From positions 1-25,256 of IMG/VR virus record IMGVR_UViG_3300035698_022058: 25,256 nucleotides of DNA; one strand, 5' to 3'. This stretch comes from a virus. The notes below the pieces were generated by a model. The model had not been told where the DNA came from, ran no database searches, and was given only the letters and a program-made list of their open reading frames with translations. The translations under genes were made by a program, and so were the position numbers. Shown here piece by piece: positions 1,580 through 23,751 of this stretch. The first letter of the stretch is position 1. The number at the start of each line of letters is the position of its first letter.

Positions 1580-1591
1580 AACTATTTATTA
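1580..1591 (+). promoter_or_regulatory. Putative late promoter motif (CTATTTATT)
   Basis: AACTATTTATTA sits directly behind the terminator at 1547-1575 and 12 bases ahead of the ATG at 1604. The core (C/G)TATTTAT(A/T) recurs ahead of most structural genes here. A terminator on the left and a start codon on the right support a promoter role. Confidence 0.6.
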
Positions 1592-4152: not shown

Positions 4153-4163
4153 ACTATTTATAT
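4153..4163 (+). promoter_or_regulatory. Putative late promoter motif, distal copy
   Basis: ACTATTTATAT lies 9 bases after the terminase stop codon. It shares the (C/G)TATTTAT(A/T) core, but at about 60 bases from the portal start it is farther from an ATG than other copies; a closer copy follows at 4191. It may be a second promoter for the portal gene. Confidence 0.4.
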
Positions 4164-4190: not shown

Positions 4191-4199
4191 GTATTTATA
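4191..4199 (+). promoter_or_regulatory. Putative late promoter motif of the portal gene
   Basis: GTATTTATA lies 22 bases before the portal ATG and matches the core found before the protease, scaffold and neck genes. The leader between motif and ATG consists almost only of A and T, and lacks a Shine-Dalgarno sequence. Confidence 0.6.
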
Positions 4200-4221: not shown

Positions 4222-6189
4222 ATGGCAGAAAGAAAGACAGACGATAAAACGATATACCAAAAATTAAACGGTTTTTTTAATGTTGGTGGATTTGATACTG
4301 ATAATCAGCAAGTCAATACATCACAATCTACAGTTCAAAAAGAAAAAAGTAAGGTTGTGATTAAAGGTAATACTCCTGAAGAAATACATAGGAAAGGTTT
4401 AGAACTTGAACAAAAAAGAACCCTCCAAGATAAATTCTTTAGAACAACTGATAGAGGTTTCCAAAAAGCTTTACAATATGAAGCTGCTAGATTACCAGCA
4501 TATATAGATTATGAAGGTATGGAATATTATCCAATCATTTCAAGTGCGTTGGATTTATATATGGAAGAGGCAACAAGCATCGGATTTAATGGTAAGATGC
4601 TAAACATCTATTCAGATAAGGATAGAATTAAAACATTATTGGATGATTTCTTCTATAATATTGTTAACGTGAACGTTAACCTACCATTCTGGACTAGAAA
4701 TTTAGTTAAGTATGGTGATAATTTCGTTTTATTATATGGTGAGAGAAAGAAGGGTATTAATCATGTAAAACAAATGGTTAATTATGAAATTGAAAGATTT
4801 GAGCGAATACAGAACGGTAAACCTGTTATAAAGTTTAAAGAAAGAATGACGGGTGATGAATTTAATGTTTTTGAGGTTGCACATTTTAGATTATTGGGTG
4901 ATGATAAATATTTACCTTATGGTTCATCAACGTTAAATAAGGTTAGGAGAGTTTTTAGACAATTAGTTATGGCTGAAGATGCGATGCTAACTTATAGAAT
5001 TATTCGTGCTGGTGAGAAGAAAGTATTTAAAATTGATGTTGGTAATATTGATGACGATGATATTGAAGATTACATCTACAAGGTAGCTACTAAGTTTAAG
5101 AAAGTTGGACAAGTATCGCCTAACGATGGTCAGATTGATTATAGATTTAATATTTTAGGTAACGATGAAGATTATTTCTTACCTGTAAGAAATGCTAATG
5201 TTCAGACAGGGATCGAAACTCTTGACGGTGCAAGCAACCTTGATGCAATACAAGATATTGAATACCTAAGAGATAATTTATTTATTGGATTGGGAATACC
5301 TAAACCATTTTTAAGTTTTCAAGATGCTGCAGGTGCTGGTAAAAATATGGCACAATACGATATACGTTTCGCTAAGAAAGTAAATAGAATTCAGCAAGCA
5401 TTAATACAGGAATTAAATAAAATGGCAATGATTCATTTATATTTATTAGGGTATAGTGCTGAAGATGTTGGAGATTTTACGTTAACGTTAACAAATCCAT
5501 CAATACAAGAAGAGATTTTAAAATCTGAATTGTTGAGGGATAAATCAACAGCATATGCTGATTTAACTCGTGGTGATGGTGGTATTGCTGCAATGTCACA
5601 TACACAAGCTAAGAAACTTATATTTAATATGAGTGATGCTGATATAATTACAGACCTGAAACAACAAAAGATGGAAAAAACTGTAATGCAAGAATTAGCA
5701 GATGCACCTATTAATGTTAAGAAATCTGGAATATTTGCCGATTTAGATGCTAGGTATGGTACTCCAAACGATGGTAGCGAACCTAATCCTGAAGAGGGAA
5801 ATCCAGAAGGTAACGAAGGTGGTGAAAATCCTATGGGTGGAGCACCTCCTGAAGGAATGGGCGGTGGTATGGATAATAGCGCTGCTGGTCTACCTGAACC
5901 TCCTGATGCTGGAATAGCTTTAGGTGAGGGTAATATGAATCTAGATGAATTTGAAAAATATGTTACTAATATGGTAAATTCAAGTTCTAAAGAGAAGATC
6001 GCCCAAACAAAGAAGAAGGAAGAAAAAAAACGTGTAATTACGGAAAATAATGACGCTGTTAAAGATCAAAATAATAAAGCGGTTGAAATGATTGGTGAGA
6101 TTGATGGTATATTGAAGACTTCGGAAACATTAAAAAATTACGATGATGAATTTGAGGGTATTGATTTAGAATCATTAAAAGAAGAATAA
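4222..6189 (+). CDS. 20: Portal vertex protein (T4 gp20-like)
   Basis: A 655-residue protein, against 524 in T4 gp20. Members of this family form the dodecameric ring at one capsid vertex on which head assembly starts, where terminase docks and where the neck is later attached. The recognisable core is DIEYLRDNLFIGLGIPKPFL (about residues 345-364), followed by the helical segment KNMAQYDIRFAKKVNRIQQA and further helices, which match the clip/stem/wing layout of T4-type portals. An earlier segment with YYPIISSALDLYMEEA (about 96-111) also fits. Residues about 515-565 form a Pro/Gly/Glu/Met-rich low-complexity linker, and the C-terminus is charged and helical; this extension explains the extra length. 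The ATG at 4222 follows a late-type motif and an AT-only leader. Confidence 0.92.
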   Translation: MAERKTDDKTIYQKLNGFFNVGGFDTDNQQVNTSQSTVQKEKSKVVIKGNTPEEIHRKGLELEQKRTLQDKFFRTTDRGFQKALQYEAARLPAYIDYEGMEYYPIISSALDLYMEEATSIGFNGKMLNIYSDKDRIKTLLDDFFYNIVNVNVNLPFWTRNLVKYGDNFVLLYGERKKGINHVKQMVNYEIERFERIQNGKPVIKFKERMTGDEFNVFEVAHFRLLGDDKYLPYGSSTLNKVRRVFRQLVMAEDAMLTYRIIRAGEKKVFKIDVGNIDDDDIEDYIYKVATKFKKVGQVSPNDGQIDYRFNILGNDEDYFLPVRNANVQTGIETLDGASNLDAIQDIEYLRDNLFIGLGIPKPFLSFQDAAGAGKNMAQYDIRFAKKVNRIQQALIQELNKMAMIHLYLLGYSAEDVGDFTLTLTNPSIQEEILKSELLRDKSTAYADLTRGDGGIAAMSHTQAKKLIFNMSDADIITDLKQQKMEKTVMQELADAPINVKKSGIFADLDARYGTPNDGSEPNPEEGNPEGNEGGENPMGGAPPEGMGGGMDNSAAGLPEPPDAGIALGEGNMNLDEFEKYVTNMVNSSSKEKIAQTKKKEEKKRVITENNDAVKDQNNKAVEMIGEIDGILKTSETLKNYDDEFEGIDLESLKEE

Positions 6190-6222: not shown

Positions 6223-6231
6223 GTATTTATA
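6223..6231 (+). promoter_or_regulatory. Putative late promoter motif
   Basis: GTATTTATA lies 18 bases before the ATG at 6250. A partial copy (GTATTTA) lies just upstream at 6214. Same core as the other late-gene motifs. Confidence 0.55.
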
Positions 6232-6249: not shown

Positions 6250-7029
6250 ATGAAAAATATTAATATTGGAATAGCAAATTTGATTGTTTCAAATAAGATA
6301 AAAAATTCTTATTTCGATCAAAAATATCTTAGCGAAGCTAAAGAAATAACAAGCAGTTTCTTAGATGTTATTAACAATTCAGAGATATTGCAATTAGAAT
6401 TTAAAGTTTTTGACAATATTGAAAAGATGTCTATTAATTCTGATGTAAAAGCAATGCGCTATATTGATAATAATGTTAAATTATTTGAAGTTTTTACTTT
6501 AGAGGAAATTGCTAAAGAACATGATAAGCTTCAAATATTTCTTACCGAATCTAAAATTGATAGTGTATTTAATGATAAAGTTAAGCTATATAATTCAATA
6601 TTCACATTAATAGAACAATCCCTAACAAGACCAGATCAGATAGAAATTGATATTTTACATGAATCATTTGATTATGTTTTAGAACATATAAAGAAAACTA
6701 AGAACGTAAGTAAATCTATTTATGAATCTAAATATTCCGCTGATGTTATTGATATTGCTATTAATAAATTTAATGAAAAATATTCAACCTTAAATGAGAA
6801 CGATAAAGAATTGTTAATGAAACTCATTAACTTTACATTAGATGAAAAGAAAGATTTGTTAGAAACATTTAAAAATGATAGTCTATTATTATTAAAGGAA
6901 TTAGATGAAAAGGATACCTCTACTAATATTACAGAGGCAATAAAAAAGGTTAATAATATGACATTTGACAGTAATACTATTAATAATCAAATTATTAACC
7001 TTTTTGAATTGAAAAAAGGGTTGCTTTAA
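6250..7029 (+). CDS. Unknown helical protein downstream of the portal gene
   Basis: A 259-residue protein, rich in Lys, Glu, Asn and Ile, that appears almost entirely alpha-helical, with no membrane segment or signal peptide. I do not recognise the family. T4 has the small prohead core genes 67 and 68 between the portal gene and the protease gene, so a head-assembly role is possible from position only. Residues 97-101 read Phe-Leu-Thr-Glu-Ser, the same five residues as at the capsid protein N-terminus, and FLTE is also the sequence before the known cleavage site in T4 gp23; this could be a protease site. The gene has its own late-type motif. It converges on the minus-strand lysozyme-like gene, with one base between the two stop codons, and part of a minus-strand terminator lies inside its 3' end. 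Confidence 0.8.
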   Translation: MKNINIGIANLIVSNKIKNSYFDQKYLSEAKEITSSFLDVINNSEILQLEFKVFDNIEKMSINSDVKAMRYIDNNVKLFEVFTLEEIAKEHDKLQIFLTESKIDSVFNDKVKLYNSIFTLIEQSLTRPDQIEIDILHESFDYVLEHIKKTKNVSKSIYESKYSADVIDIAINKFNEKYSTLNENDKELLMKLINFTLDEKKDLLETFKNDSLLLLKELDEKDTSTNITEAIKKVNNMTFDSNTINNQIINLFELKKGLL

Positions 7030-7059
7030 ATTATGAGTAGTGATTACTACTATCAACCC
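7012..7059 (-). terminator. Possible intrinsic terminator of the minus-strand tail cassette
   Basis: Read on the minus strand, GGGTTG (7059-7054) pairs with CAACCC (7023-7018) and is followed by six T (7017-7012). The loop encloses a second small hairpin, GTAGT/ACTAC (7037-7050). The structure overlaps the last codons of both convergent genes. The outer stem has only 6 bp and a long loop, so this is a moderate call. Confidence 0.4.
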
Positions 7060-7900
7060 CTGCAGTAAATGTGTTGAATTCTGAAATTGGTATGTCCATA
7101 CCTAATTCTTTATTTCCAAAACTATCGTATAGATGTCTAAATACTTTATGGACATAATTTATACCAGTTAACGTATATTCATCACCCTTCTTACGTCTCG
7201 TATTTGCAACGGTTTCGAAATATGTGTTTTTTATAAGAGCAGGACCTCTATTATAACCAAAAAGTGCATTGCTTGCTAATTTATGTTGGCTTGTGAGATT
7301 TGCTATATAATTCATATATCTTACTTGTAATTTTATTGATATTTTAGGGTTATCTATTACGTTTTGAAATAATATTTTTCTATATGGTATGTATTTACTG
7401 CCTGCTATATAATAATTCTTATCATTAGTGAACCCAATAGGTAATCCTACAGTAAGTCTATTTCTTTCATCTGTAGTTATTATTAACCCCCCCTTACTGT
7501 CATAATTATTACCTATTGCTGCCTCATAAAATGTGCTCATTAGAAATTGACCTAAACTCATCGATGTTGATTCCTTTGTAATGTCATCGGTTATTGGATA
7601 GTTCCAAACAATGTAACTCGATTCTAAGAATGTCTGTATTGCCATCATGTTAGCGTCAATCTTAGCTTCATTACAATAGAGATTATACCAATCAATGAGA
7701 TTCTCACCTAATTGTCCGTTTGTTGTTATACCTCCATTAATATTAGGGTCAGATGTCCAAACAGTGTCAGATGTTACTCCATCAGCGAAGGGTAATATCT
7801 TTCTTTTTTTACCTCTTAATAGTGAATTACCGCTACCATTACAATGTTTTCTGATAAATGCTTCCCCATCACTTGTTAAACTAAAATTTGGTATTGCCAT
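7031..7900 (-). CDS. Lysozyme-like lytic transglycosylase, probably tail-associated
   Basis: A 289-residue protein with the three-part signature of the lysozyme-like/transglycosylase fold. A helix carries a likely catalytic Glu93 (AIQTFLESSY); a glycine-rich segment SLGQFLMSTF (115-124) corresponds to the usual G-L-x-Q motif; FGYNRGPA (214-221) corresponds to the usual A-Y-N-x-G-P motif. Such enzymes cleave the glycan strands of peptidoglycan. There is no signal peptide, so it should reach the wall through the tail or through lysis. It starts 7 bases after the stop codon of the large hub-like protein, so the two are one transcription unit; this mirrors the T4 baseplate hub, where gp27 partners the lysozyme-bearing gp5. 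A tail-tip enzyme for entry is therefore preferred over a lysis endolysin, although no gp5-like OB or needle domain is visible. Confidence 0.72.
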   Translation of the reverse strand: MAIPNFSLTSDGEAFIRKHCNGSGNSLLRGKKRKILPFADGVTSDTVWTSDPNINGGITTNGQLGENLIDWYNLYCNEAKIDANMMAIQTFLESSYIVWNYPITDDITKESTSMSLGQFLMSTFYEAAIGNNYDSKGGLIITTDERNRLTVGLPIGFTNDKNYYIAGSKYIPYRKILFQNVIDNPKISIKLQVRYMNYIANLTSQHKLASNALFGYNRGPALIKNTYFETVANTRRKKGDEYTLTGINYVHKVFRHLYDSFGNKELGMDIPISEFNTFTAGVDSSNHYS

Positions 7901-7907
7901 ATTATTA

Positions 7908-10900
7908 TTATTTTATATAAGTACTATACATTGAATTATATTTCATTTTATCTACAAGCCCATTAGTATCAAATGCAGGACTAATATCATTATTATAAAT
8001 TGTATCGTCTGAGTTCACGTCAAAATTAAATAAAAATGATGGTTCAGTAACTCTAGGAATTGAATATTTCAATATTTTAGTTCCAGTAAAACTACTATTC
8101 ATATTATTTGCTGTAATTGTATGTTCAACATTTAAAATAAGATATGCACCATTAAATAATGGAACATTATCTAATTGAAAGTATTGAGTTGGTTGTATCA
8201 TAGGATTACCTAAACCCTTTATTGTTGCAGTATATGATCTATTCTCATAAATCTCATAAAGATTCTGTGCTTTAATATATGTTCTATTGTTACTATTATC
8301 TACCATATTCGATAACACTTGAATGGATTCGTTGGTTTCTGGATATTCTTTACCGTCAATCTTCATATCAGTAAACATTGATTGATTTTGTTCTCCGAAT
8401 CTAACTCTAAATGCTCTTACTGCTCTCCAAGGAAAATCATCATTTATTTTATTTAATTCATCGTTACTGGAAGAAGTGTTCGAACCCTCATTATTCGTTG
8501 TGACATTATTATTATCTTCATTTATTTTTGCTGTGCTGAAATCTGTTGCATTTTCCAATTCATCAAGTCCATCTTCTTTAAATTCGCCACCCTTTCCAAT
8601 ATTAGTAGGATAACTTGCACTACCCCCAACATACATACAAATAAACATTGGTACTACATCAGCTTTTGTACTAACATCGATTTTAAATGCAGCGTCCCAA
8701 CTATCTTTATCTTTTGAATTAATATAATTTTGTAAAGGAAAGAAAATGAAATTATTTGCCGATAAAATATTGGCAAGTGCTGTGTAAACACTAATTTCTG
8801 GATTATTATCGTAGAAATCTAATAAGATTTGAGGGTCAATAATCGTATCGTTTATTGGATTCAATGCCCTATCTACAAAAACGAAAGAATCTATTAAATC
8901 TTTACCTGACCTATTAAATGGATAACCTGAACTTGTATTTGAAGCATCATCATTACTTTTAGTTAACCATTTATCGTTAATATTTTTAAAAGAGTAATAC
9001 ATTTGATTTATTATGTCTACATCTTGAACAATATCCCTAGACTCTTCATCTTTATCGTTAATCTCATCCTTTTTCTTTTTAAGTTCAGTAGTTAAAGTAT
9101 TAAAGAATTTATTGAAGAAGATTTTATTAATATTAGTTCCACTTTGCTCAGATAATGGAGAATATGTAGTTTTTGAATCTTTTCTTTGGAACGCATTATC
9201 ATTATATAATATAAGATATGATTTACTTAAAAAGTTCGGAAATATCGATTTAAAAGTTAATTCATATCCCTTAACTACCTTTTTCGGACGAATTTGAGGA
9301 TTAATTAACGAATCATAAAGTTCTTTTTTAGTCTTAGTAGTGCCTGTATATGTGTTTACTTTATCATACAATTCTGCCACAGCACTTCTCATGCTTCTTA
9401 AATACGCATCTTTAGAGTTTACATATTCGTTTCTAAACGTTACCTTATCGGTAGGTGAAAGATATTTATTTATATCATATATGTCAGCAAATATTAAAAA
9501 ACCACTAGAATCTAAACGTCTACCTCCTCCTGTTAGGAAGAATGCTTTTAGAGCGTTGATAGATTCGTCAGTCATATCAACCAAAGCACCAACATACGCT
9601 TTAACGTAATTAGGCATTTCAACTATTGATGGATTCTTAAATAATGTTTTATTTAAATAGTTTGGTGCTCCATTGAAAATGCTTAAAGTATAACCGAAAT
9701 TAGATAAAACTAGAATATCCCCAATCTCACTAGTTATGTCATCAATTAAAACTGTTTTAAGTAATGTGTCGTTTTTCGATAATTGATCAACCCAAATATC
9801 AGGAATATTTCCATAATTTTTTAATTTAGCTCCGTAGTTAGCATTATTGCTTATATTATTACCATTTAATAAATAATCATCGATTGTTTTAGTCTTGGAT
9901 TTAACGTTCTTAAAAACAGTATCGCCTATTTTACCAACAAATCTCGTATATAATGGAATATTCTCATATTCCGTAGTTAATAATTTTTCCTTTTTATTAT
10001 CCTTTTTTACAATATCCTGAATTAATATAAGATTCTCTTTAGTTGTTTCATACACATTTTCAACATATTTTTTATTAAATAATTTCTGTAATCCTTTAGT
10101 CTTAACCACGTCAAACTCATTTAAAGGATTGTCGCTATCAGAGATATCACTGCCAATACCAATATCACCATTTGCAATATCAAAACCCTTATATTGGGTT
10201 TGAGATTTGTCAATAAAGTAATCATCAGCATTTGTATAACCATAACCTCCAAAATCAGATGAAATTGAATTTCCACTAAAATTATAAACGGCAGGAAGTT
10301 CATCCTCAATATATTTATAAAACTCATCAATATTGCCAACGTAAGTTCCACAAAATTCTTTTAGGTTGTCTGCTAAATCGCTATTGTTTATTGTAAGAAG
10401 TAAATTAATTGCTTCAGTTTCTCCATAAATATTAACATATGTATTATTAGTATAAAAATCCTCACTAAATGAATATTGACTCAATACATAAAATCTATAT
10501 AAAAATATTTTCATTATCTGATTTATTTTAGTATCAGTACTGTCGTTAACATACCCATTATTAGGGTCGATTGTAGCGTAGGGTGAATCTATTTCTGTCG
10601 AAGCTAAATTCGAATCTTGAGGTGAGAGCGGTATCCATTTATTATTGCCGTTATCATCTCTATTCCCCTTCATACCTTCATTTAACGCCCTATTTTTTTG
10701 TCCATTAAATGTTTGAATAAAATCTTTAATTAACGAAATTTCAGGCATTGGGTTTTCTCCTAGCTTATTACTTAATTCAATAGGAGCTGTTCTATTTATT
10801 GTTTTTGTGTTGTAATTATCTATTTTTACTTCAGTATGTAATGGATATGCGTATATTTTACTAGTTACATCATTTTCTAATGACCCAACCATTTCGGTTT

Positions 10901-12383
10901 TATGTAGTTCATGATGTGTCTCAGCATCTATTGAATTTTTTCTCATTATATTAAAAAAAGTATCTACATCATCTAATATTATTTTAAAAATATTATATAT
11001 TGTAGGTAACATACCTAACGTTTCCATAATGGTGCTGTTAATCTTTCCTTTTAAATCATTTGAGATTTCTTGTTTTCTTTTAATGTTTTTATCTCTAACA
11101 TTATATAACTTTAAATAATATTGTGTAATATCGAGATAATCATATTCTAAAGCTGCATTAGATTTAAGTGGTACGGCAATGCTAATCTCACTAGTAAGGT
11201 GACTTAGCACTAAATCACTTGCTGTTATTTCATCATTAGAGGCTACACTAATCTCGCCCGTCATTAACTTATTCTTATACGTATTTAATTTACCTCTCAA
11301 TTTTTCACTATTTTGTGTATTAGATATATATCCAATACATAATCTTTCAGAAGGATTAATAACTCTACTTCTCTGTCCGAATGATTTTATTATTTGATCA
11401 TAATCACTTAATGAGTCTATTTTTTTTATATAAATTACTGATTCTGAAGTTGCTTGTTCAGGCGTAAAACTAGATTTAAGTTTATTTGTAAAAAGATTAG
11501 GGTTATTTTCAGCATCATAAATAAAAATAAATGGTGCATTTTCTTTAAGAGTTAAATCATTAGAATATAATTTAATTTTTTCTATTAAAGATGTATTTGC
11601 CCTTAATGAATTATTTATTTTAACATATTCATCGTGCTCGGCACTTCCTTCGATTGTTTCGGTAATAGTATTATATAGTCGTTTTGTTTTAGCAATTAAA
11701 TCATCAGTATTATTTGGTTCTATTCCCAAACTAGGATCACTTGACTTACTATTATCGTTTAGAAATGGAAAATTAACGATATATCTAAATAAAACGTCTG
11801 ATAATGGTGCAAAGGTCATAGCGATAAATTTTGCATCAATGGTAAAATTACCATTATCTGAACTAAATTCACTACTGTATTCAACTAAATGTATTACATA
11901 TTCTATTGTTTTTCCAAAATATCCTTTAATTCTTAGAGTAAATATTGGCGGTGGAAAGTCATATAATATCCTGTATGGTGAGTCATCATCATTAAAGAAA
12001 GATAAACCTCTTAAATCAATAAACTTTATATTAATCTCTGGAACAAAAGAGCTATTAATTTTTATATTAATACTTTCAATTCCAAACGCTTCATATTGTA
12101 TTTCACTTCCAAATGTACTACCATCATAATAATTTGTTGTAAAATTAGCCTCGTTATTACTTCCCTCATTTTGGTTAATGCCCATCATGTTAATTTTTAG
12201 AGCATTAGAGGTTAGAAGTTTTTCTCCTTTATTTTGTAGAACACTTCTTCCCTTTCTTTCGGCAACAAGTTCTGCAAAAATAAACATATCCTCATAATTG
12301 GGAATTGCATTGGTTATGTTACTATTAATGTTTAATGAGTTAGGATCATCAACAACCATTAACACATTATCGTTTTTTTCCAT
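7908..12383 (-). CDS. Very large baseplate hub-like tail protein
   Basis: A 1491-residue protein. The N-terminal region (about 85-215) holds beta-rich sequence such as INIKINSSFVPEINIKFIDL and FTLRIKGYFGKTIEYVIHLV, which resembles phage hub domains of the gp27/late-control-D type. The C-terminal region (about 1370-1440) resembles the closing part of such domains: an Asn-Pro-x-Ile-x-Pro turn (GNPMIQPTQYFQL), then FNGAYLILNVEHTI. T4 gp27 has 391 residues, so the roughly 1100 residues between these ends would be a massive insertion or several added domains; they include Asn/Ser-rich linkers near residue 1290. The gene starts 14 bases after a late-type motif on the minus strand and is followed by the lysozyme-like gene. 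Hub identity is inferred from the two terminal patterns and the partner gene. Another large baseplate protein is the main alternative. Confidence 0.6.
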   Translation of the reverse strand: MEKNDNVLMVVDDPNSLNINSNITNAIPNYEDMFIFAELVAERKGRSVLQNKGEKLLTSNALKINMMGINQNEGSNNEANFTTNYYDGSTFGSEIQYEAFGIESINIKINSSFVPEINIKFIDLRGLSFFNDDDSPYRILYDFPPPIFTLRIKGYFGKTIEYVIHLVEYSSEFSSDNGNFTIDAKFIAMTFAPLSDVLFRYIVNFPFLNDNSKSSDPSLGIEPNNTDDLIAKTKRLYNTITETIEGSAEHDEYVKINNSLRANTSLIEKIKLYSNDLTLKENAPFIFIYDAENNPNLFTNKLKSSFTPEQATSESVIYIKKIDSLSDYDQIIKSFGQRSRVINPSERLCIGYISNTQNSEKLRGKLNTYKNKLMTGEISVASNDEITASDLVLSHLTSEISIAVPLKSNAALEYDYLDITQYYLKLYNVRDKNIKRKQEISNDLKGKINSTIMETLGMLPTIYNIFKIILDDVDTFFNIMRKNSIDAETHHELHKTEMVGSLENDVTSKIYAYPLHTEVKIDNYNTKTINRTAPIELSNKLGENPMPEISLIKDFIQTFNGQKNRALNEGMKGNRDDNGNNKWIPLSPQDSNLASTEIDSPYATIDPNNGYVNDSTDTKINQIMKIFLYRFYVLSQYSFSEDFYTNNTYVNIYGETEAINLLLTINNSDLADNLKEFCGTYVGNIDEFYKYIEDELPAVYNFSGNSISSDFGGYGYTNADDYFIDKSQTQYKGFDIANGDIGIGSDISDSDNPLNEFDVVKTKGLQKLFNKKYVENVYETTKENLILIQDIVKKDNKKEKLLTTEYENIPLYTRFVGKIGDTVFKNVKSKTKTIDDYLLNGNNISNNANYGAKLKNYGNIPDIWVDQLSKNDTLLKTVLIDDITSEIGDILVLSNFGYTLSIFNGAPNYLNKTLFKNPSIVEMPNYVKAYVGALVDMTDESINALKAFFLTGGGRRLDSSGFLIFADIYDINKYLSPTDKVTFRNEYVNSKDAYLRSMRSAVAELYDKVNTYTGTTKTKKELYDSLINPQIRPKKVVKGYELTFKSIFPNFLSKSYLILYNDNAFQRKDSKTTYSPLSEQSGTNINKIFFNKFFNTLTTELKKKKDEINDKDEESRDIVQDVDIINQMYYSFKNINDKWLTKSNDDASNTSSGYPFNRSGKDLIDSFVFVDRALNPINDTIIDPQILLDFYDNNPEISVYTALANILSANNFIFFPLQNYINSKDKDSWDAAFKIDVSTKADVVPMFICMYVGGSASYPTNIGKGGEFKEDGLDELENATDFSTAKINEDNNNVTTNNEGSNTSSSNDELNKINDDFPWRAVRAFRVRFGEQNQSMFTDMKIDGKEYPETNESIQVLSNMVDNSNNRTYIKAQNLYEIYENRSYTATIKGLGNPMIQPTQYFQLDNVPLFNGAYLILNVEHTITANNMNSSFTGTKILKYSIPRVTEPSFLFNFDVNSDDTIYNNDISPAFDTNGLVDKMKYNSMYSTYIK

Positions 12384-12391
12384 CTAGTAAT

Positions 12392-12406
12392 TTTCTAATA
12401 AATAGT
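12392..12406 (-). promoter_or_regulatory. Late-type promoter motif of the minus-strand tail cassette
   Basis: Read on the minus strand, ACTATTTATTAGAAA ends 8 bases before the start codon of the hub-like gene (12383). The same 15 bases occur in the opposite direction at 12443-12457 in front of the divergent plus-strand gene. This pair shows that the motif has direction and goes with the downstream gene. Confidence 0.72.
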
Positions 12407-12442
12407 GATAGCATAAAAATATAATTTTTTATTTAAACCTAT

Positions 12443-12457
12443 ACTATTTATTAGAAA
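12443..12457 (+). promoter_or_regulatory. Late-type promoter motif of the divergent plus-strand gene
   Basis: ACTATTTATTAGAAA ends 9 bases before the ATG at 12467 and is identical to the minus-strand copy at 12392-12406. The spacing from core motif to start codon is nearly the same on both strands. Confidence 0.72.
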
Positions 12458-12466
12458 GATATTAAA

Positions 12467-12850
12467 ATGGACATATTAGAATTAGTAATTATAATATTAT
12501 TGATATTAGCGAATATTGGTATTGTTCTTTATTTTAATATTAGGCATCGAAAAGATTTAAAGGATATTGAAGTGTTAAAACTAGAACATGTAGAAAAGAT
12601 TGAAAATCTAACTAAATCGTATGTGACAAGATTTGAATCTATGAGAATTGCTGTTATTGACGGTGAAATACATAGAAATAAACAATGGAGCACATCTGAA
12701 AGCACATTAAATGAGGTATTAAATAAGACTCGTATTGTTATGGAAAATGCAGCAACAAGTATTTTAACTAATAATACTGAAATAGATAAAAACCTTTTAA
12801 TTATAAATGAAAAGGTTAATAGAATTCTAAAAAACATTGAAAATGAGTAG
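12467..12850 (+). CDS. Small membrane-anchored coiled-coil protein
   Basis: A 127-residue protein. Residues about 4-24 (LELVIIILLILANIGIVLYF) form one hydrophobic segment, followed by a basic patch (RHRK), so the N-terminus is probably outside the cytoplasm or just embedded, with the rest on the other side. The remainder is charged and helical, likely coiled coil. Length and layout resemble an inner-membrane spanin (Rz-type), and a lysozyme-like gene lies nearby on the other strand, but the overlapping downstream ORF lacks the lipoprotein signal expected for an Rz1 partner. By position, between portal and protease genes, it could also be a head-core protein replacing T4 gp67/gp68, though a membrane segment argues against that. 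Function remains unknown. It has its own late-type motif. Confidence 0.7.
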   Translation: MDILELVIIILLILANIGIVLYFNIRHRKDLKDIEVLKLEHVEKIENLTKSYVTRFESMRIAVIDGEIHRNKQWSTSESTLNEVLNKTRIVMENAATSILTNNTEIDKNLLIINEKVNRILKNIENE

Positions 12851-12999: not shown

Positions 13000-13009
13000 A
13001 CTATTTATA
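13000..13009 (+). promoter_or_regulatory. Putative late promoter motif of the protease gene
   Basis: ACTATTTATA overlaps nothing coding: it begins 2 bases after the stop codon of the 51-residue ORF and ends 12 bases before the ATG at 13022. The leader includes an AAAAAAAGG run, but this is only 2 bases from the ATG and is too close to act as a normal Shine-Dalgarno site. Confidence 0.65.
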
Positions 13010-13021
13010 ATAAAAAAAGGT

Positions 13022-13714
13022 ATGAGTAAGATATTACAAGCAGGAGAACAGGGTTTCGGTATACTTATAGAAAGAGACGCTGGAGTTATAAGTCCTGATT
13101 TAAATAAAGAGTTTTTAACGGAGGAATTTAAATTTAAACCCAACCAACCTATTCTAATAAACTGTATCCTACAAAAATGGGGAGTTAAGAATAAGAATGG
13201 TAGAATTTATACTAAAGATGTATTAGTTCCTCAAGTTAATGAATATCAACTTCTAATTGATACGAACTCTGCTGTTTCTGAAGCAGATCATCCAGATTCA
13301 TCGATTATATCATTACATAACATAGCACATATGATTACTAAAATGTGGTGGGGTAAGAATGAATTTGAAAATGTATTATATGGTCAGTTAAAATTAATTG
13401 TTACTCGTGGCTATCTTGAAATGGGTATTGTTTCGGTTGTTGGTGATAAAATACTACTATATCTTGAAAACGGTATTAAGTTAGGTATTTCATCAAGAGG
13501 GGTTGGTACGTTAAAAGAAATTAATGGTGAGAATATAGTTCAGAACGATTTCGAATTAATTGGATTTGATTTAGTTTCATCTCCAAGTACTCCCGGTGCA
13601 TATTTATTTCCAGAACAAAGTCCAAGTCTGAATAATTTTAACGAAACCATAGAAAAGGTAGAATTGATAAAAGATACTAAAGTAATTAACGCAATTAATA
13701 GATTTTTACATTAA
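13022..13714 (+). CDS. 21: Prohead core protease (T4 gp21-like)
   Basis: A 230-residue serine protease, close to the 212 residues of T4 gp21. It should act inside the prohead to cleave scaffold and capsid proteins before DNA packaging. Visible landmarks of the family are NKNGRIYTKDVL (about 57-68), EADHPDSS (87-94) with the likely catalytic His90, MWWGKNE (108-114), and GIKLGISSRGVG (151-162) with the likely catalytic Ser157 or Ser158, followed by FELIGFDLVSSPSTPGAYL. All key positions are present. It lies directly upstream of the scaffold and capsid genes, in the same order as T4 21-22-23, and has its own late-type motif. Confidence 0.93.
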   Translation: MSKILQAGEQGFGILIERDAGVISPDLNKEFLTEEFKFKPNQPILINCILQKWGVKNKNGRIYTKDVLVPQVNEYQLLIDTNSAVSEADHPDSSIISLHNIAHMITKMWWGKNEFENVLYGQLKLIVTRGYLEMGIVSVVGDKILLYLENGIKLGISSRGVGTLKEINGENIVQNDFELIGFDLVSSPSTPGAYLFPEQSPSLNNFNETIEKVELIKDTKVINAINRFLH

Positions 13715-13780: not shown

Positions 13781-13789
13781 GTATTTATA
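13781..13789 (+). promoter_or_regulatory. Putative late promoter motif of the scaffold/capsid unit
   Basis: GTATTTATA lies 32 bases before the scaffold ATG at 13822, a longer leader than for other copies. No other motif or terminator lies between here and the capsid gene, so this promoter may serve both scaffold and capsid. Confidence 0.55.
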
Positions 13790-13821: not shown

Positions 13822-15273
13822 ATGGCAAAAGAAAAGAAAACGATAATTGATGAGGCTTTAACTGATTATAATATCATCAAAGAAGCTGCGGAAAATAAAG
13901 CTAAAAATGACTTAGCTAAAAAATTTCCAGAGAAGTTTAGTGAGTTAATTAAAGAAAACATAAATAATAAAAAAGCTAAAGAGTCAGAAGTAGAAGATGA
14001 CGAAACCGAAGAGTCTGATAAAAAGGACGATAGCGCTTCAAAACAAGATACTGATATGGAAAAAACCAAAAAAGAGACTAAAACGGTAGTCAAAGAAAAT
14101 GAAAAGAAAGCTACTCCTTTCGAAGAAAATCCAAAAGAAACGAAAAGTACTAGCGAAACGGAACACCAATCTGCAGATACACAAGCCACGTCAACTAAGA
14201 AATATAATGGCGATAAAGAATTTGTAGAAACGGAAGCCGAGACACCTAATATTAAAAAAGGTGAAAAAGAAAATGCTCCCTTTGATAAAAAGGTAAGTAA
14301 ATCTGAAGTATCTGAAATTAATGAAGAATTTGAAAATGCTGACAAAGAAGAATTCCTTACAATTGATGAAATTGAAGCAGAAATCAATGAATTAGAGCAT
14401 AAAGACACAGTTCAAGGCGTGACAGTACCTAGAGGTACTCCAACAGGTCAAGAAGGTGATTTATATACTAAATTAGTTGATATGAAGAATTTCCTTGATG
14501 AAGTTGTAGGTAATTTAAAGGGTGGTGAAAAAGAAGAAGTAGCTGGTGAGGAACTAGCAGCTCCACCTGAAGAAATTACTATCGATATGGGTGGAATTAC
14601 TGAAGAAGAAGACTTAGAAATAACTGATGCTGATATCGAAGGTATATTAGGTGAAGATGAAGTAGTAGAACAACATGGTGTTTCACACTCTGCTGGTACT
14701 ACTATGACAAGTAAATTACCTGCTGACGATTATTTAAGTACTAGTGAAAAACCTCGTAGACGTTTTAGTAAGTTTAATGAATCAAAAAATGTTAAAACAT
14801 TAATTGGCGATAATAAAAAACTCACTAAGAAAGTAAACGAAAGTAATAAGTATAAAAAAGAAGTTAGCACGTTACTAGAAAGCTATAAAACAGCTCTAAA
14901 AAAATATCGTACCCAATTAATGGAAATGACGGTATTCAATACAAATTTATCTCATGTTAATAACATTTTAGTTAATGAGTCTCTCGCATTAACTCAAAAC
15001 GACAAAATCAGTATTATTAACGATTTTAAGAAGATAAGCAACATTAACGAATCAGTTGATAAGTATAATAGTGTTGTAACTGATTTCTCAAGCAAAAAAA
15101 CTATAACTGAAGAAGTAGAAACTAAACTGAATGGTGATTCAATTCAAAATTCATCTAAGAATAAACTTGATGAGGTTGTTGAGAAAACTGCTTATGCGAA
15201 TAACGAACATATTAATAGAATGAAAAGTCTAATTAAATATGTTGAAACTGGGAGAACTAAAAAAATAATATAA
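13822..15273 (+). CDS. Prohead core scaffold protein (T4 gp22-like by position and composition)
   Basis: A 483-residue, very acidic and Lys/Glu/Thr-rich protein without Cys, longer than T4 gp22 (269). Residues 1-290 look mostly disordered or coiled; residues about 310-480 are helical and basic. This composition fits an internal scaffold that is later degraded. It lies between the protease and the major capsid genes, exactly where T4 has its main scaffold gene 22. The C-terminal half carries four hydrophobic-Asn-Glu-Ser motifs, ending at Glu320, Glu340, Glu386 and Glu410, that fit the T4-type protease rule (hydrophobic-x-Glu, cut after Glu). The capsid gene starts 24 bases downstream without an obvious separate promoter. 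The N-terminal start AKEKKTIIDEAL follows a late-type motif. Confidence 0.8.
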   Translation: MAKEKKTIIDEALTDYNIIKEAAENKAKNDLAKKFPEKFSELIKENINNKKAKESEVEDDETEESDKKDDSASKQDTDMEKTKKETKTVVKENEKKATPFEENPKETKSTSETEHQSADTQATSTKKYNGDKEFVETEAETPNIKKGEKENAPFDKKVSKSEVSEINEEFENADKEEFLTIDEIEAEINELEHKDTVQGVTVPRGTPTGQEGDLYTKLVDMKNFLDEVVGNLKGGEKEEVAGEELAAPPEEITIDMGGITEEEDLEITDADIEGILGEDEVVEQHGVSHSAGTTMTSKLPADDYLSTSEKPRRRFSKFNESKNVKTLIGDNKKLTKKVNESNKYKKEVSTLLESYKTALKKYRTQLMEMTVFNTNLSHVNNILVNESLALTQNDKISIINDFKKISNINESVDKYNSVVTDFSSKKTITEEVETKLNGDSIQNSSKNKLDEVVEKTAYANNEHINRMKSLIKYVETGRTKKII

Positions 15274-15297: not shown

Positions 15298-16980
15298 ATG
15301 GGATTTTTAACAGAAAGCGCTGAAGTTGGGAACATTGGTTTAAAGCAACTTCGTGAACAAAGAGAAATTACAACAAACCGTTGGGAAAAAATTGGTTTGT
15401 TAAAAGGTCTAGAAGGTAACGTAAAAGAGAATTGCGCACAGCTTTTCGAAAATCAGTTATCTTATATGATCAACGAATCTAGTGATTCAAGTAATTCAGG
15501 ACAATTCGAAACCGTAGCGTTTCCAGTAATTCGTAGAGTATTTGCGAAACTATTGGCTAATGATATCGTTTCTGTACAAGCTCTTAACCTACCTATTGGT
15601 AAGTTATATTACATCAACCCTAAGACTAGTGTTAGAGTAGAATCAGGTACTGCTACAACTACTGACGGTTATGAACACACATCACCAAACGGTGCATATA
15701 GTAATGCTGCTGAAAAAGCTGCAACATCATCAACACAATTCGAGACTCGTTCTCTATACGATGCATTTTATGCTAGTGAGTACAATGAAGAAGGTACTTC
15801 ATTATTTGATCGTTCAAAAGGTGCAATTACAATGGTTACTGGTGAAACTACAGGTTACACTTATACACAAGGTGATAAGTATCTTGAGGTTAAAATTGGT
15901 GGTTTCTTAGTATCTGATACTGGAAAATTAGTAGGACCTTCTGGTGTTCAAATGGACACTGAAACATTCCTAGCTGGATTGAAGATTACTTCAGACATTA
16001 ATTTTATCGCTCCTGCTGGATTTACTGACCAAACAATCACTTCTGGTGACACTATTCCTTTCAATATTAAGGTTCAAAAGTACGGACAAGCAATTGTTGA
16101 TACTACAGGTGTTATTACATTAGTTGTTGATCTACAATATGCTGGAACTAACGGTTACCAAGCATTAAGTGGTGCAACTGCAAGTCCTACATTCAATTAC
16201 GAATATAGAACTTATAGTGACCTTGAGGAAGATTCAAGAATGGCTGAAGTTACATTCCAATTGGATGAAGTAACTGTAAGTGTTGAGACAAGAAAAATGA
16301 GAGCTATGTGGACTCCAGAATTAGCTCAAGACGTTTCAGCTTTCCATAACATTGATGCTGAAGCAGAATTAACTGCTTTATTATCAGAACAAATGGCTGC
16401 TGAAGTTGATAGAGAAATTTTACGTGACTTACGTAGAGGCGCTGCATGGACTGCACGTTGGGATTATAATGGTTTACGTAGACAATCTAATACATATTAC
16501 GGAACACAAAAGGATTGGAATCAAACATTGATCACTAAGGTGAATCAGATTTCAGCACAAATCCATAAAGCAACACTTCGTGGTGGAGCATCTTGGGTAG
16601 TTGTATCTCCTGAAGTTTCTGCAGTATTTGATGACCTTGAGTATTTCCACGTATCTAATGCTGATCCAGAGCAGGATAAGTATAACATGGGTATTGAGAA
16701 AATCGGAACATTAAGTGGACGTTACATCGTGTATCGTGATCCTTATGCTACTGCTAACACAGTATTGATCGGACATAAAGGAACATCAATCCTAGAAACG
16801 GGTTACATATATGCCCCGTACGTGCCAATGCAGCTAACACCTGTGATGTATAACCCATTCGACTTTACTCCGTGTGGTGGTATCCTATCGCGTTATGCTA
16901 AGAAGATGGTATTGAACAGATACTTCGGACGTATCTTTTGTGATGGTTTACAGACATTTGGAATTGGTGACCTACAGTAA
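15298..16980 (+). CDS. 23: Major capsid protein precursor (T4 gp23-like)
   Basis: A 560-residue protein, against 521 in T4 gp23, expected to form the hexamers of the head. Recognisable family segments are ENCAQLFENQL (44-54), matching the AKIFENQ region of T4 gp23, RKMRAMWTPELAQD with NIDAEAELTALLSEQ and AEVDREIL (about 332-378), and a C-terminal APYVPMQLTPVMYNPFDFTP segment. Residues about 100-300, rich in Thr, Gly and Ser, probably hold the HK97-type loop and an inserted domain. The N-terminal propeptide is likely removed by the protease: MINE|SSDSS puts the cut after Glu60, near the aligned T4 site at Glu65; FLTE|S after Glu6 is a second match. The gene follows scaffold with an A-rich leader and is closed by a strong terminator, in line with high expression. 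Confidence 0.96.
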   Translation: MGFLTESAEVGNIGLKQLREQREITTNRWEKIGLLKGLEGNVKENCAQLFENQLSYMINESSDSSNSGQFETVAFPVIRRVFAKLLANDIVSVQALNLPIGKLYYINPKTSVRVESGTATTTDGYEHTSPNGAYSNAAEKAATSSTQFETRSLYDAFYASEYNEEGTSLFDRSKGAITMVTGETTGYTYTQGDKYLEVKIGGFLVSDTGKLVGPSGVQMDTETFLAGLKITSDINFIAPAGFTDQTITSGDTIPFNIKVQKYGQAIVDTTGVITLVVDLQYAGTNGYQALSGATASPTFNYEYRTYSDLEEDSRMAEVTFQLDEVTVSVETRKMRAMWTPELAQDVSAFHNIDAEAELTALLSEQMAAEVDREILRDLRRGAAWTARWDYNGLRRQSNTYYGTQKDWNQTLITKVNQISAQIHKATLRGGASWVVVSPEVSAVFDDLEYFHVSNADPEQDKYNMGIEKIGTLSGRYIVYRDPYATANTVLIGHKGTSILETGYIYAPYVPMQLTPVMYNPFDFTPCGGILSRYAKKMVLNRYFGRIFCDGLQTFGIGDLQ

Positions 16981-17126: not shown

Positions 17127-17142
17127 TATGTTTGTATTTATA
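17127..17142 (+). promoter_or_regulatory. Composite promoter region: TAnnTTTG and late-type motif overlapping
   Basis: TATGTTTG (17127-17134), matching the Bacteroidota -7 element, overlaps by one base GTATTTATA (17134-17142), matching the late-type motif, 10 bases before the ATG at 17153. No convincing -33 TTG lies 19-21 bases upstream of the first element, so the late-type reading is the better supported. The late-type motif here is followed by AATA, making it a palindrome that also contains TATAAATA. Confidence 0.45.
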
Positions 17143-17152
17143 AATAAAGACT

Positions 17153-18811
17153 ATGAGAAAATTAGAAGTTGAGAATAACATTAAATTAGAAATATATAAT
17201 AAATTTTGTAGTGGGATTTCTATGAGAAAATTAGAAACTGAATATCCATACTCCTTCACGTTCATCCAGAAGCTAATTAGTTCATTTCAATGGGAAGATC
17301 AAATAAGTAAAAACTATCCCAAGAAAGAAGGATATAATATGGTAGCTATTTGTAGTGAAACAGGTAAGAAATTTAGTGATTATTCTAATGAATCTGGTGC
17401 TTTAACAACACATGTTTTAAAACTACATCCAGAAGAAAGTAAATTAAGTAAATATAAAAGGAAATCGATTGAATATAATAGTGGTAAATTTTGGTACGAT
17501 AAATATTTTACGTTTACATATGAAAAACCTAAAGAAGTAAAGAAATGTTTTTATTGTGATTGGACAACAACGGATATTGATAATTTATCTGGTGCGTATG
17601 AAAAACATTTACTATTAGAACATAATATCGACATTATTGATTATTTAAAGGAAAATTCCACAGACAAAGTATATTTCAAGCATTTTGAAATATTAGAACC
17701 TAAAGATGGTGTTGAATGTAAGATTTGCGGTAGGAAGTTTGATATTATAACACATAGTCATTTAAGAATGCATGGGATAACCAATTATGAGTATAAAGTC
17801 AAATATGGAAATAATATGGCTTCTGAAAGAATAAAAAAATTACAACATAAACACTGGGAAGTCAATCTAAAAGATTGTGGTTTTACTAAACAATCATCAT
17901 ATGAGAAAACAATATTAAATGAATTATCTGAAATAGATTTTGAAATATCGAATAGAAAAATACTTGACGGTTTAGAACTTGATTTGTACTATAAGGATAA
18001 GAATATTGCCATTGAGGTAGATGGTATATTTTATCATTCTGAAATAGGGGGAAAGAAAAATAAAAATTACCATTTAAATAAGACTCTTCTATGTGAAGAA
18101 AAAAATATTAATTTAATTCACATTTTTGAAGACGAATTAGTTTATAATGAAAAATTAGTAATTTCTAAATTAAAACATATCTTTAAGATTAGTAAAGATA
18201 TTAGAGTTCATGCGAGAAAATGTAATTTAGTTGAGATTAAAAATAGCGTTGCTAGAAACTTTTTCAATGAAAATCACATACAAGGGGGTAGTGTAAATAA
18301 TCCTATTTGTATAGGAGCTTTTTTTAACGATAAAATTATTGGTGTTATGTCATTTGATAATAAACGCTCAATGAATAAAGAAAAGAACCATGATTCAAGT
18401 TTCTACGAATTAACAAGATTTGCAATAAAGGATGGTTATGTTTCTGCGGGATTAGCATCTAAACTACTTAAATTTTTTATTATGAATTATAATCCATATA
18501 AGATATTATCATTTGCTGATAGACGATGGACACCAAATGCGAATGAAAACTTATATACTAAGTTAGGGTTTAAATTAACTAAGACTTTAAAACCTGACTT
18601 TACCTACCTTAAAAATTCCGAATCTAGATATAAAAGACTACATAAATTCGGCTTCAGCAAAGCCATGATTAAAAAGAGATTTCCAAGCGTTTACGATCCT
18701 ATTAAGACTGAATGGGAAATGATGCAAGAATTAGGCTATGATAGAATATGGGATTGCGGTAAGTTTAAATATGAGCTTATTCTGCATCACCATCAAACTC
18801 AATCAACCTAA
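17153..18811 (+). CDS. Zinc-finger, Vsr/EDxHD-like endonuclease with C-terminal GNAT-like domain (probable homing or mobile endonuclease)
   Basis: A 552-residue multidomain protein. Residues 8-48 look like a helix-turn-helix. Two zinc-finger-like units follow: Cys132/Cys135 with His152/His157, and Cys189/Cys192 with His203/His207, the latter ending MHGITNYEYKVKYG as in Ros/MucR-type fingers. Residues about 245-340 resemble a Vsr/EDxHD nuclease: Glu251, Asp278 in LELDLYY, Glu288 and Asp290 in IAIEVDGIFYH, His295, then INLIHIFEDEL. Residues about 360-540 resemble a GNAT/Mom-like acyltransferase: NHIQGGS, IIGVMSFD, FYELTRFAI, SFADRRWTPNANE, LYTKLGF and a C-terminal DCGKFKYEL. Such proteins are common in phages as free-standing homing-type endonucleases. 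It sits between the capsid terminator and a converging early cluster, which fits an insertion. The last 35 bases overlap the neighbouring minus-strand gene, and about ten residues follow the usual family end. Confidence 0.75.
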   Translation: MRKLEVENNIKLEIYNKFCSGISMRKLETEYPYSFTFIQKLISSFQWEDQISKNYPKKEGYNMVAICSETGKKFSDYSNESGALTTHVLKLHPEESKLSKYKRKSIEYNSGKFWYDKYFTFTYEKPKEVKKCFYCDWTTTDIDNLSGAYEKHLLLEHNIDIIDYLKENSTDKVYFKHFEILEPKDGVECKICGRKFDIITHSHLRMHGITNYEYKVKYGNNMASERIKKLQHKHWEVNLKDCGFTKQSSYEKTILNELSEIDFEISNRKILDGLELDLYYKDKNIAIEVDGIFYHSEIGGKKNKNYHLNKTLLCEEKNINLIHIFEDELVYNEKLVISKLKHIFKISKDIRVHARKCNLVEIKNSVARNFFNENHIQGGSVNNPICIGAFFNDKIIGVMSFDNKRSMNKEKNHDSSFYELTRFAIKDGYVSAGLASKLLKFFIMNYNPYKILSFADRRWTPNANENLYTKLGFKLTKTLKPDFTYLKNSESRYKRLHKFGFSKAMIKKRFPSVYDPIKTEWEMMQELGYDRIWDCGKFKYELILHHHQTQST

Positions 18812-21442: not shown

Positions 21443-21451
21443 GTATTTATT
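21443..21451 (+). promoter_or_regulatory. Putative late promoter motif of the neck cluster
   Basis: GTATTTATT lies 25 bases before the ATG at 21476. It shares the 51-base divergent gap with the -7 element of the host-type promoter on the minus strand, and lies about where that minus-strand transcript would start. Confidence 0.55.
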
Positions 21452-21460
21452 ATTAGTTAA

Positions 21461-21491
21461 CAAATATACGATATTATGGCATTAATAACAA
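21461..21491 (-). promoter_or_regulatory. Bacteroidota-type (early) promoter of the helicase cluster
   Basis: On the minus strand TTG (21491-21489) is followed by 20 bases and then TATATTTG (21468-21461), matching the Bacteroidota housekeeping consensus of a -33 TTG/TTTG and a -7 TAnnTTTG with 19-21 bases between. A start near 21454 would leave a leader of about 30 bases before the ATG at 21424. The -33 element lies inside the start of the plus-strand neck gene. Confidence 0.72.
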
Positions 21492-22594
21492 CTGTACAGA
21501 AAAATAAATTATTTTTACATATAAAACACGAACTCGGTTTCCCATTAAGACCCTTTGAAATTAATGATGAAATGATGGATTCTTATTTAGAAATGGTTGT
21601 TGAAGATTACTCAGCAATGGTTAATGGTTGGTTGATTGAACAGCAATGGGTATCATTAGAAGGTATGAATAAAGATAGTGGTGATTTCCTTTCAGCATTT
21701 ACCGTTAAATCTAATCATTATATGGAATCCTTTACTTATGCTTATTCAAGACAAGTAGGTTTAGGTACTAATGCACCAGCAGCCAATGGTTGGGAATTAA
21801 AGCGTGATTATATTACTACAGCAGCAAATACACAACATTATATAATACCAGCGGGTAGAGAAGTTAATGAGGTATTATGGGATACTCCACCAGCAATTGA
21901 CGGTGGTTTAGTTGATCCATTTGCAATGAATGCTTGGTCATCAGGAATGATGGGGTGGTCATATCTTGGTCGTCCAGCATCATATGTACAACCTACATAT
22001 TCAACATTACTAGGTGCTCAAGATCGTAGAATGAAACAAAGAGTATTACAATCCACTCTTACATATAGAATTACAGGTATGGCTGACGGAAGAAAGATGT
22101 TGCATCTTTATCCAATGCCCGGAGGTAGACACGAGATCGGTTCACATTGGGGTAAACATTATGCAGGTAGGAAGGTATGGTATTGGTATTATGACACTAA
22201 TGGTGAATCTAGAGATGATTGTGTTGATGCCAATGATGATGTGGTTAGATTACCTTCTGATCCACCAGCAAGTACATTGAAGTGGGATAAATTGAATGAT
22301 ATGGCTAAACAGCAAATAAGAGATTTATTAATTGCTAAAGTTAAAATGGTTTTAGGTGGGGTTAGAGGTTTTTATTCTGGTGAATTAGGTGTTGCTGAAA
22401 AACAATTAACATTAGATTATAGACACTTACTAGATGAAGGAACTTCATTGAAGGATGCTACTAAAGAAGAGGTATTGGCTCAATTAGATAAGATTAGTCA
22501 GGTTAATTTAACGCAAGCTCGTGCTGATATTGCAGAGAACGTCAACAGGGAGAGGGGTCTGCAGCCGCCTATGTTCCCAATCATTCCAATTTAA
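21476..22594 (+). CDS. Neck/head completion protein (T4 gp13-like)
   Basis: A 372-residue protein, against 309 in T4 gp13. The N-terminus (LFLHIKHELGFPLRPFEINDEMMDSYLEMVVEDYS) has the pattern of gp13-type neck proteins: a helix, Leu-Gly-x-Pro, then a helix of the putative subunit interface. The C-terminal part (AKVKMVLGGVRGFYSGELG, then HLLDEG and a charged helix) also fits, as in T4 gp13 where a similar segment precedes the end. The middle is aromatic-rich (Trp, Tyr, Pro, Gly). gp13 seals the filled head at the portal and allows tail joining. A late-type motif precedes it, and a second putative neck gene lies three genes downstream. Identity with another connector or neck protein is the alternative. 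Confidence 0.6.
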   Translation: MALITTVQKNKLFLHIKHELGFPLRPFEINDEMMDSYLEMVVEDYSAMVNGWLIEQQWVSLEGMNKDSGDFLSAFTVKSNHYMESFTYAYSRQVGLGTNAPAANGWELKRDYITTAANTQHYIIPAGREVNEVLWDTPPAIDGGLVDPFAMNAWSSGMMGWSYLGRPASYVQPTYSTLLGAQDRRMKQRVLQSTLTYRITGMADGRKMLHLYPMPGGRHEIGSHWGKHYAGRKVWYWYYDTNGESRDDCVDANDDVVRLPSDPPASTLKWDKLNDMAKQQIRDLLIAKVKMVLGGVRGFYSGELGVAEKQLTLDYRHLLDEGTSLKDATKEEVLAQLDKISQVNLTQARADIAENVNRERGLQPPMFPIIPI

Positions 22595-23268: not shown

Positions 23269-23751
23269 ATTAACGGTTCAGACGAGAAACCCGAATTTAT
23301 TATACCCGTAGGTATTTCGGGTTCAGGCAAGTCTAGATGGATTAAAACATTAGATAATTCTTATACGATTATAAGTCCTGATGAGATAAGGAGAGAATTA
23401 ACTGGAGATGTTTCAGATCAAACAAAAAACGCTCTAGTTTTCGATACGGCATTTAAAAGAACAATTGATGCATTAAATGCGGCAAATAATGTCGTATTCG
23501 ATGCAACTAATATTAATTCTTTCCATAGGAAAAAAATGTTAGATACTTTAAGAGAAAAAGTTAGTGTTGATTTTAAAGCATATGCTAAGATTTTTGATGC
23601 TGATCCTGAAGTTACTAAAGAAAGAATTAGATTAGATATTGAAAATGGTGTTGATAGATCAAATGTTCCATCGCATGCTATTGATCGTCAATATAAGACT
23701 TTCAAGTCTGATTTAAATAAAATTGAAAGTGATGGGTATTTATTAATGTAA
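23224..23751 (+). CDS. Tagged P-loop kinase, polynucleotide-kinase-like
   Basis: A 175-residue protein. After the 15-residue tag it holds a single P-loop kinase domain: Walker A VGISGSGKS (29-37), SPDEIRREL (51-59), which is the substrate-side motif of the 5'-polynucleotide kinase/AAA_33 family, and VVFDATNIN (90-98) as the Walker B/base-binding strand. A lid region with Arg residues (KERIRLDIENGVDRS) follows. The family, which includes the kinase half of T4 PseT, phosphorylates 5' hydroxyl ends of DNA or RNA; there is no phosphatase half here, and other small-molecule kinase roles are possible. It sits 12 bases after the other tagged gene and overlaps the next gene by one base (TAATG). Location among neck genes, far from nucleotide metabolism genes, is unusual. 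Confidence 0.82.
   Translation: MKNNNKDRLFEMMEKINGSDEKPEFIIPVGISGSGKSRWIKTLDNSYTIISPDEIRRELTGDVSDQTKNALVFDTAFKRTIDALNAANNVVFDATNINSFHRKKMLDTLREKVSVDFKAYAKIFDADPEVTKERIRLDIENGVDRSNVPSHAIDRQYKTFKSDLNKIESDGYLLM

Follow-up and report, generated by a model that had tools for sequence, protein, structure and literature searches.

The standard example of a minimal phage sigma factor that reads a single A/T box is late transcription in phage T4. The T4 late promoters carry the sequence TATAAATA, which is read by gp55 acting with gp33 and the gp45 clamp, and their layout is that of a single box without a −35 in A/T-rich surroundings (PMC2988020). The late promoters of cyanophage S-PM2 have the sequence NATAAATA (PMC2984593). 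A survey of the Group 2 jumbo phages, in those of its passages that bear on transcription, describes phage sigma factors and gp33; the sigmas named there are of an RpoD-like type and of a minimal type with an HTH only (PMC7824862). Here we describe a box of the T4 late kind with an altered centre, which precedes genes throughout a group of giant T4-related phages.

A divergent pair of boxes among T4-type head genes

The DNA analysed here (the window) is a complete IMG/VR record of 25,256 bases with a T4-type head block, consisting of genes for terminase, portal, prohead protease, a protein in the scaffold position and a gp23-type capsid; it further encodes a homing endonuclease and a helicase. 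The earlier note on this DNA had reported that the same 15-mer stands 8–9 bases before two divergent start codons, and its positions are confirmed. The sequence ACTATTTATTAGAAA occurs once on each strand, the plus-strand copy at 12443–12457 ending 9 bases ahead of the ATG at 12467 and the minus-strand copy at 12392–12406 lying 8 bases from the start codon that ends at 12383. The two copies form perfect 15-base inverted-repeat arms with a 36-base spacer, inside a divergent gap of 83 bases. We propose that the region 12392–12457 would constitute two divergent phage promoters belonging to one genome-wide class, with the consensus A(G/C)TATTTAT(A)NN(A)AA.

The window was scanned using a matrix of 35 columns, built from five large relatives with the window left out, at a cut-off of 10. 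There are 11 sites scoring at least 10, whereas in 20 replicates of order-1 Markov sequence the expectation is 1.0 and the highest count 3. The next-best score is 7.9; all 11 sites are in the sense orientation and at most 70 bases from an ORF start. These candidate promoter boxes are as follows.

12392–12406 (−): box ACTATTTATTAGAAA, core CTATTTATT at 12405–12397, ahead of the gene at 7908–12383 (−), 1491 aa, no family match; matrix score 15.8; box conserved in relatives at the homologous gap
12443–12457 (+): divergent box ACTATTTATTAGAAA, core at 12444–12452, ahead of the gene at 12467–12850 (+); matrix score 15.0; box conserved in relatives at the homologous gap
1582–1590 (+): box CTATTTATT, ahead of the gene at 1604–2086, core start to ATG 22 bases; matrix score 14.6
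4154–4162 (+): box CTATTTATA, the upstream one of two ahead of the portal gene at 4222–6189; matrix score 11.6
4191–4199 (+): box GTATTTATA, ahead of the portal gene at 4222–6189 (PHROG 213); matrix score 19.1
6223–6231 (+): box GTATTTATA, ahead of the gene at 6250–7029; matrix score 20.4
7916–7924 (−): variant box GTACTTATA, ahead of the gene at 7031–7900 (−), overlooked in the earlier note; matrix score 12.1
13001–13009 (+): box CTATTTATA, ahead of the prohead protease gene at 13022–13714 (PHROG 207); matrix score 14.4
13781–13789 (+): box GTATTTATA, ahead of the scaffold-position gene at 13822–15273; matrix score 22.6, the highest in the window
17134–17142 (+): box GTATTTATA, ahead of the homing endonuclease gene at 17153–18811 (PHROG 3339); matrix score 19.6
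21443–21451 (+): box GTATTTATT, ahead of the gene at 21476–22594; matrix score 15.3

The genes previously said to be preceded by the core, at 1604, 4222 (two boxes), 6250, 13022, 13822, 17153 and 21476, are thus all found again. The major capsid gene (15298–16980; PHROG 138) lies downstream of the box at 13781–13789 and the gene at 13822–15273, in the same orientation, and we note that the homing endonuclease gene behind it (17153–18811) has a copy of the box of its own. The bare core STATTTATW is only modestly enriched in the window, with 12 matches against 5.5 expected, a number reached in one of 100 shuffles. Two exact core matches look like chance occurrences: that at 10792 (+), which is antisense within the long minus-strand gene, and that at 23736 (+), which lies inside an ORF and has a matrix score of 5.8.

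A genome-wide class in related phages

Approximately 160 related-phage loci were gathered by means of their capsid and portal proteins. In a motif-blind count of 8-mers over 848 upstream regions, GTATTTAT ranks first, being found in 430 regions in the sense and 128 in the antisense orientation, although the regions include orthologs from many relatives and these counts are therefore non-independent. Leave-one-genome-out scans of the five large relatives (genomes of 246–349 kb) find the box A(G/C)TATTTAT(A)NN(A)AA 62–123 times per genome against 6–19 expected, mostly in intergenic DNA. The genome-wide strand bias on which the promoter reading had been staked beforehand is present: in the tandem gaps of these genomes there are 269 boxes in the sense and 13 in the antisense orientation, while divergent intergenic DNA has 115 sites in 22.3 kb and convergent intergenic DNA has seven in 11.9 kb. 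The pattern was also set against a reversed-pattern control in 14 relatives, which we take as support.

Occurrence of the box is bimodal over the 83 ortholog clusters found in all five genomes, 45 of which never have it and 16 of which always do. All gene calls in this analysis are uncurated and simply take the longest ORF. There is no cluster with the box in at least three members together with the other promoter class, TGTAAC-N-CGTATAAT, in at least two. The phages that have the box in common number in the hundreds; they are giant, related to T4 and for the most part uncultivated. The orientation and placement of the box argue that it is very probably an oriented phage promoter.

Comparison with T4 late promoters

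The eight-base sequence TATTTATA is present 40–64 times in the sense and 9–30 times in the antisense orientation in each of the five relatives. Flavobacterium phage immuto has 22 sense and seven antisense copies, and in Microcystis phage Mel-JY01 the sense to antisense ratio is 14:3 for TATTTATA and 18:0 for ATATTTAT. In T4, taken through the same pipeline as a control, there are 20 sense and seven antisense copies of TATAAATA. Because the sense-strand counts are opposite with the same script, we regard TATTTATA as the box of this clade in place of the TATAAATA of T4. In the same orientation the two differ at two of eight positions, the central positions 4 and 5, where an A is replaced by a T; the box is nearly palindromic, and its opposite forms therefore differ at just these two positions. 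The earlier note had called the motif a reverse-complement-like late promoter; the sense bias of TATTTATA bears this out, but the wording does not hold up as well, as two central A-to-T changes describe the box better.

Alignment of 200 sites, one per gene family and with TATTTAT fixed by the search, reveals conserved columns with an A at −1 and a G or C at 0, and an A at box position 8 in two thirds of the sites. The A's at 11–13 downstream are also conserved (0.72 and 0.44 bits at 12 and 13). It seems plausible that these downstream A's mark the transcription start site, in which case the eight-base TATTTATA would occupy approximately −12 to −5, the place of TATAAATA in T4 late promoters. 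In this alignment no strong −35 is seen, only a weak T preference of at most 0.16 bits at −18 to −13. A bipartite promoter with CTTTTTC at −18 to −12 was apparent in 446 aligned sites, a set inflated by repeated orthologs, and we do not claim this element because so little of it is left when each gene family contributes a single site.

The candidate promoters thus resemble T4 late promoters in having one 8-base A/T box at the −10 position, A/T-rich sequence downstream and a −35 region without conservation, in lying ahead of virion genes on either strand, with T4-like structural genes, and in having a probable reader that is recognisable as a sigma factor by domain 2 alone. They differ from T4 late promoters in that the box is preceded by a G or C and trailed by A's, and is found ahead of replication genes as well. 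The cyanophage late promoters are single-box and T4-related, as those of the clade are, yet keep the T4 orientation, so that both the clade and the cyanobacterial phage Mel-JY01, with their flipped centre, are unlike promoters of the S-PM2 type. No phage late promoter with TATTTATA was found in the literature searched, which covered few subscription papers.

Genes preceded by the box

The box precedes genes for the terminase, portal, protease, scaffold, tail sheath, tail tube, baseplate wedge and hub, and late expression of these genes is likely from their content. It is also present ahead of a DNA-repair exonuclease gene heading a run that includes a primase gene and an ECF-type sigma gene, and the box would therefore drive virion operons plus at least one replication operon. 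The name late promoter, which the motif had been given at the outset, fits the virion genes; because the exonuclease-primase operon also carries the box, it is a reasonable yet incomplete label, and the class cannot be purely late.

A candidate reader of the box

A divergent gp55-like sigma factor had been suggested as the reader, and a fitting protein, with a distant sigma region 2, is indeed present in every relative examined in full. This protein of 250–290 aa, here called gp55L, was reached through a weak match in immuto; it is encoded by all five full genomes and absent from the 25-kb window record, and 80 copies were collected from viral contigs. In immuto its gene lies at about 78.2–78.8 kb of MW353175. 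Among 50,697 phage records its relatives are found in LR756508, immuto and Mel-JY01 only, where they are annotated as hypothetical or are unannotated. There is no significant PHROG for gp55L, and, in a further departure from T4, the gp55 profile PHROG 234 does not match it.

An AlphaFold2 model of gp55L has a mean pLDDT of 73. Residues 12–120 of the model align to sigma region 2 of 4lup_C with a Z of 8.6 and an rmsd of 2.9 over 92 residues, and nearly all of the top rows of the structural alignment are sigma factors; 4lup_C is sigmaE bound to its −10 strand. These alignments were made by VIA-align on Foldseek candidates, which amounts to a second look rather than to a search, and middling Z values can arise by chance with helical models; Foldseek itself finds nothing significant for the model, the best E being 0.25, to the sigma factor WhiG. 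Alignment of gp55L with gp55 by hhalign covers region 2 with an E of 1.3e-4 and a probability of 53%, and a sigB-type profile scores nearly the same. As the gp55 and sigB profiles score so similarly, we conclude that gp55L looks like a domain-2 sigma, which may or may not descend from gp55 proper.

The association of gp55L with the box suggests that it is probably the reader. The box and gp55L are both present in immuto and in Mel-JY01, and in neither phage is there a Sigma70_r2 match, with ECF sigmas undetected; it is mainly for this reason that gp55L seems to us a better candidate than the ECF-type sigmas. What ties gp55L to the box is a correlation, to which LR756508 is the main exception, as it encodes gp55L yet has no TATTTATA bias in 220 kb. 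The huge phage LR756500 (L273, L275) has a related A/T box, ATTATATTTATA, in the sense orientation, and has no detectable gp55L, a match to the gp55 profile and four ECF-type sigmas. The explanation as a whole, a single genome-wide promoter class that is used divergently here and has gp55L as its probable reader, appears to us a good deal likelier than its competitors.

There are two forms of gp55L, distinguished by some 40 residues that one of them carries as an in-frame insert midway through its sigma region 2 domain:

G003:118404–119273 (−), L308, L344, L347, L349 and L355: gp55L of the insert form(s)

Judged by eye, there is no clear difference in box position 8 between phages with and without the insert. 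A shorter tandem paralog overlaps the 3′ end of gp55L in L304 (2241–2608), and a similar paralog is inferred from longer matches in L311, L312, L321, L326, L334, L338 and L343. Short ORFs of 108–118 aa that match the gp55 profile PHROG 234 are present in addition to gp55L in three of 14 relatives, too few for them to be general readers:

L216:1471–1815 (−): short PHROG 234-related ORF
G005:23379–23702 (−): short PHROG 234-related ORF, near a DNA ligase gene
L218:1450–1803 (−): short PHROG 234-related ORF

No matches were found with the PHROG 12791 profile. The gp45 model PF02916 recovers T4 gp45 and has no match in the clade or in immuto and Mel-JY01, although this model may be too narrow.

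ECF-type sigmas and other promoter classes

Nearly all of the large relatives encode two ECF-type sigmas, which fall into two clades, sigB and sigA (loci L220–L233 and L247–L250 taken together). The sigB gene lies directly after the primase gene and its product has a long S/T/N-rich linker; in several genomes there are host-type TAnnTTTG boxes ahead of the sigA gene. A second promoter class, TGTAAC(C/A)nTTT-N-CGTATAAT, is found by its core in 20–32 upstream regions per genome (three genomes); it has an ECF layout and precedes, among other genes, homologs of rIIA and rIIB and a DUF932 gene:

Upstream of G003:315074–317368 (−) and 311836–313035 (−): TGTAAC-N-CGTATAAT class, genome-wide in G003, G005, G010, G001 and G002

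In G005 this class often has CGTATACT followed by ATAAACCA. The AAC-type −35 and CGT-type −10 of ECF sigma promoters are present in the TGTAAC-N-CGTATAAT class and missing from the TATTTATA class, so that promoters of this kind occur in the same phage genomes and do not match TATTTATA. A third class, TTG-N-TAnnTTTG (16–24 sense against 5–7 antisense), resembles the host's own, and as TAnnTTTG is the flavobacterial SigA box, points to Bacteroidota hosts (PMC9723704).

The strongest competitor of gp55L as the reader of the phage promoter is sigB, with its regions 2 and 4, and we initially favored it since sigB-type genes are present in all 12 relatives in which Sigma70_r2 gives a match above the cut-off; that the sigB gene is in a box-preceded operon would also fit autoregulation. 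However, immuto and Mel-JY01 carry the box without any Sigma70_r2 match, for which we dropped sigB in favor of gp55L; moreover, the alignment of single sites per gene family lacks a −35 for region 4 to read, and the TGTAAC-N-CGTATAAT class suits ECF-type sigmas better. We therefore consider sigB an unlikely reader.

RNA elements, host sigma and the inverted repeat

An RNA-level role for the motif instead of a promoter, whether in the 5′ leader, in translation or in processing, would be in keeping with the core often starting 23–26 bases before the start codon, and translation in the Bacteroidota, which lack Shine-Dalgarno sequences, may depend in part on leaders rich in A (PMC6847099). The distance from core start to ATG nevertheless varies from 8 to more than 100 bases, the outward boxes in the 83-base gap leave little space for separate upstream promoters, and the layout of the box is the same as that of T4; on these grounds the RNA leader kept as an alternative in the earlier note is disfavored. 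The window is also without any Rfam family match, and we consider an RNA function very improbable.

It is just as improbable that the host's own sigma reads the box with no phage factor involved. A box this rich in A/T, placed much like a −10, might suit such a factor, but the flavobacterial SigA box TAnnTTTG (PMC9723704) does not match TATTTATA and forms a separate class in these genomes, and Flavobacterium and the cyanobacterium Microcystis, whose promoters differ, both have phages with the same box.

The homologous divergent gap keeps both boxes in most relatives, usually as GTATTTATA toward the long minus-strand gene and ACTATTTAT toward the plus-strand gene, and the two copies are non-identical among the 45 listed. 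Because the relatives keep both boxes and these are rarely identical, the perfect match between the two 15-mers, which had first drawn attention to this locus, is judged to be a coincidence between two conserved promoters and means nothing in itself. A hairpin or protein-binding palindrome peculiar to this one spot, for which the arms perfect over 15 bases and the 36-base spacer might speak, can be given almost no weight, as the arms differ in the relatives though the two boxes are kept, and many other genes are preceded by single boxes.

Implications

Like the Group 2 jumbo phages, as far as the matching passages of their survey describe them, these phages have jumbo genomes, a gp23-type capsid and a host polymerase that is presumably redirected by phage sigmas; neither gp55L nor the box is described in those passages (PMC7824862). 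Tentatively, we can picture a regulatory cascade in this T4-related jumbo lineage in which the host SigA would bring about expression of a phage ECF-type sigma, this sigma would open the TGTAAC-N-CGTATAAT promoters (the rIIA/rIIB class), and a gp55 counterpart would then read the flipped-centre box of the virion genes, with box and sigma extending to phages of Flavobacterium and Microcystis. The reader is probably a very distant and hitherto unrecognised cousin of the T4 late sigma. A flipped-centre box paired with a diverged sigma would be a natural experiment on how sigma domain 2 sets −10 specificity, and the cultured phages immuto and Mel-JY01 make the system experimentally accessible. In hundreds of jumbo-phage contigs from uncultivated phages, for which there is no isolate, the box also allows virion operons and promoter classes to be annotated.
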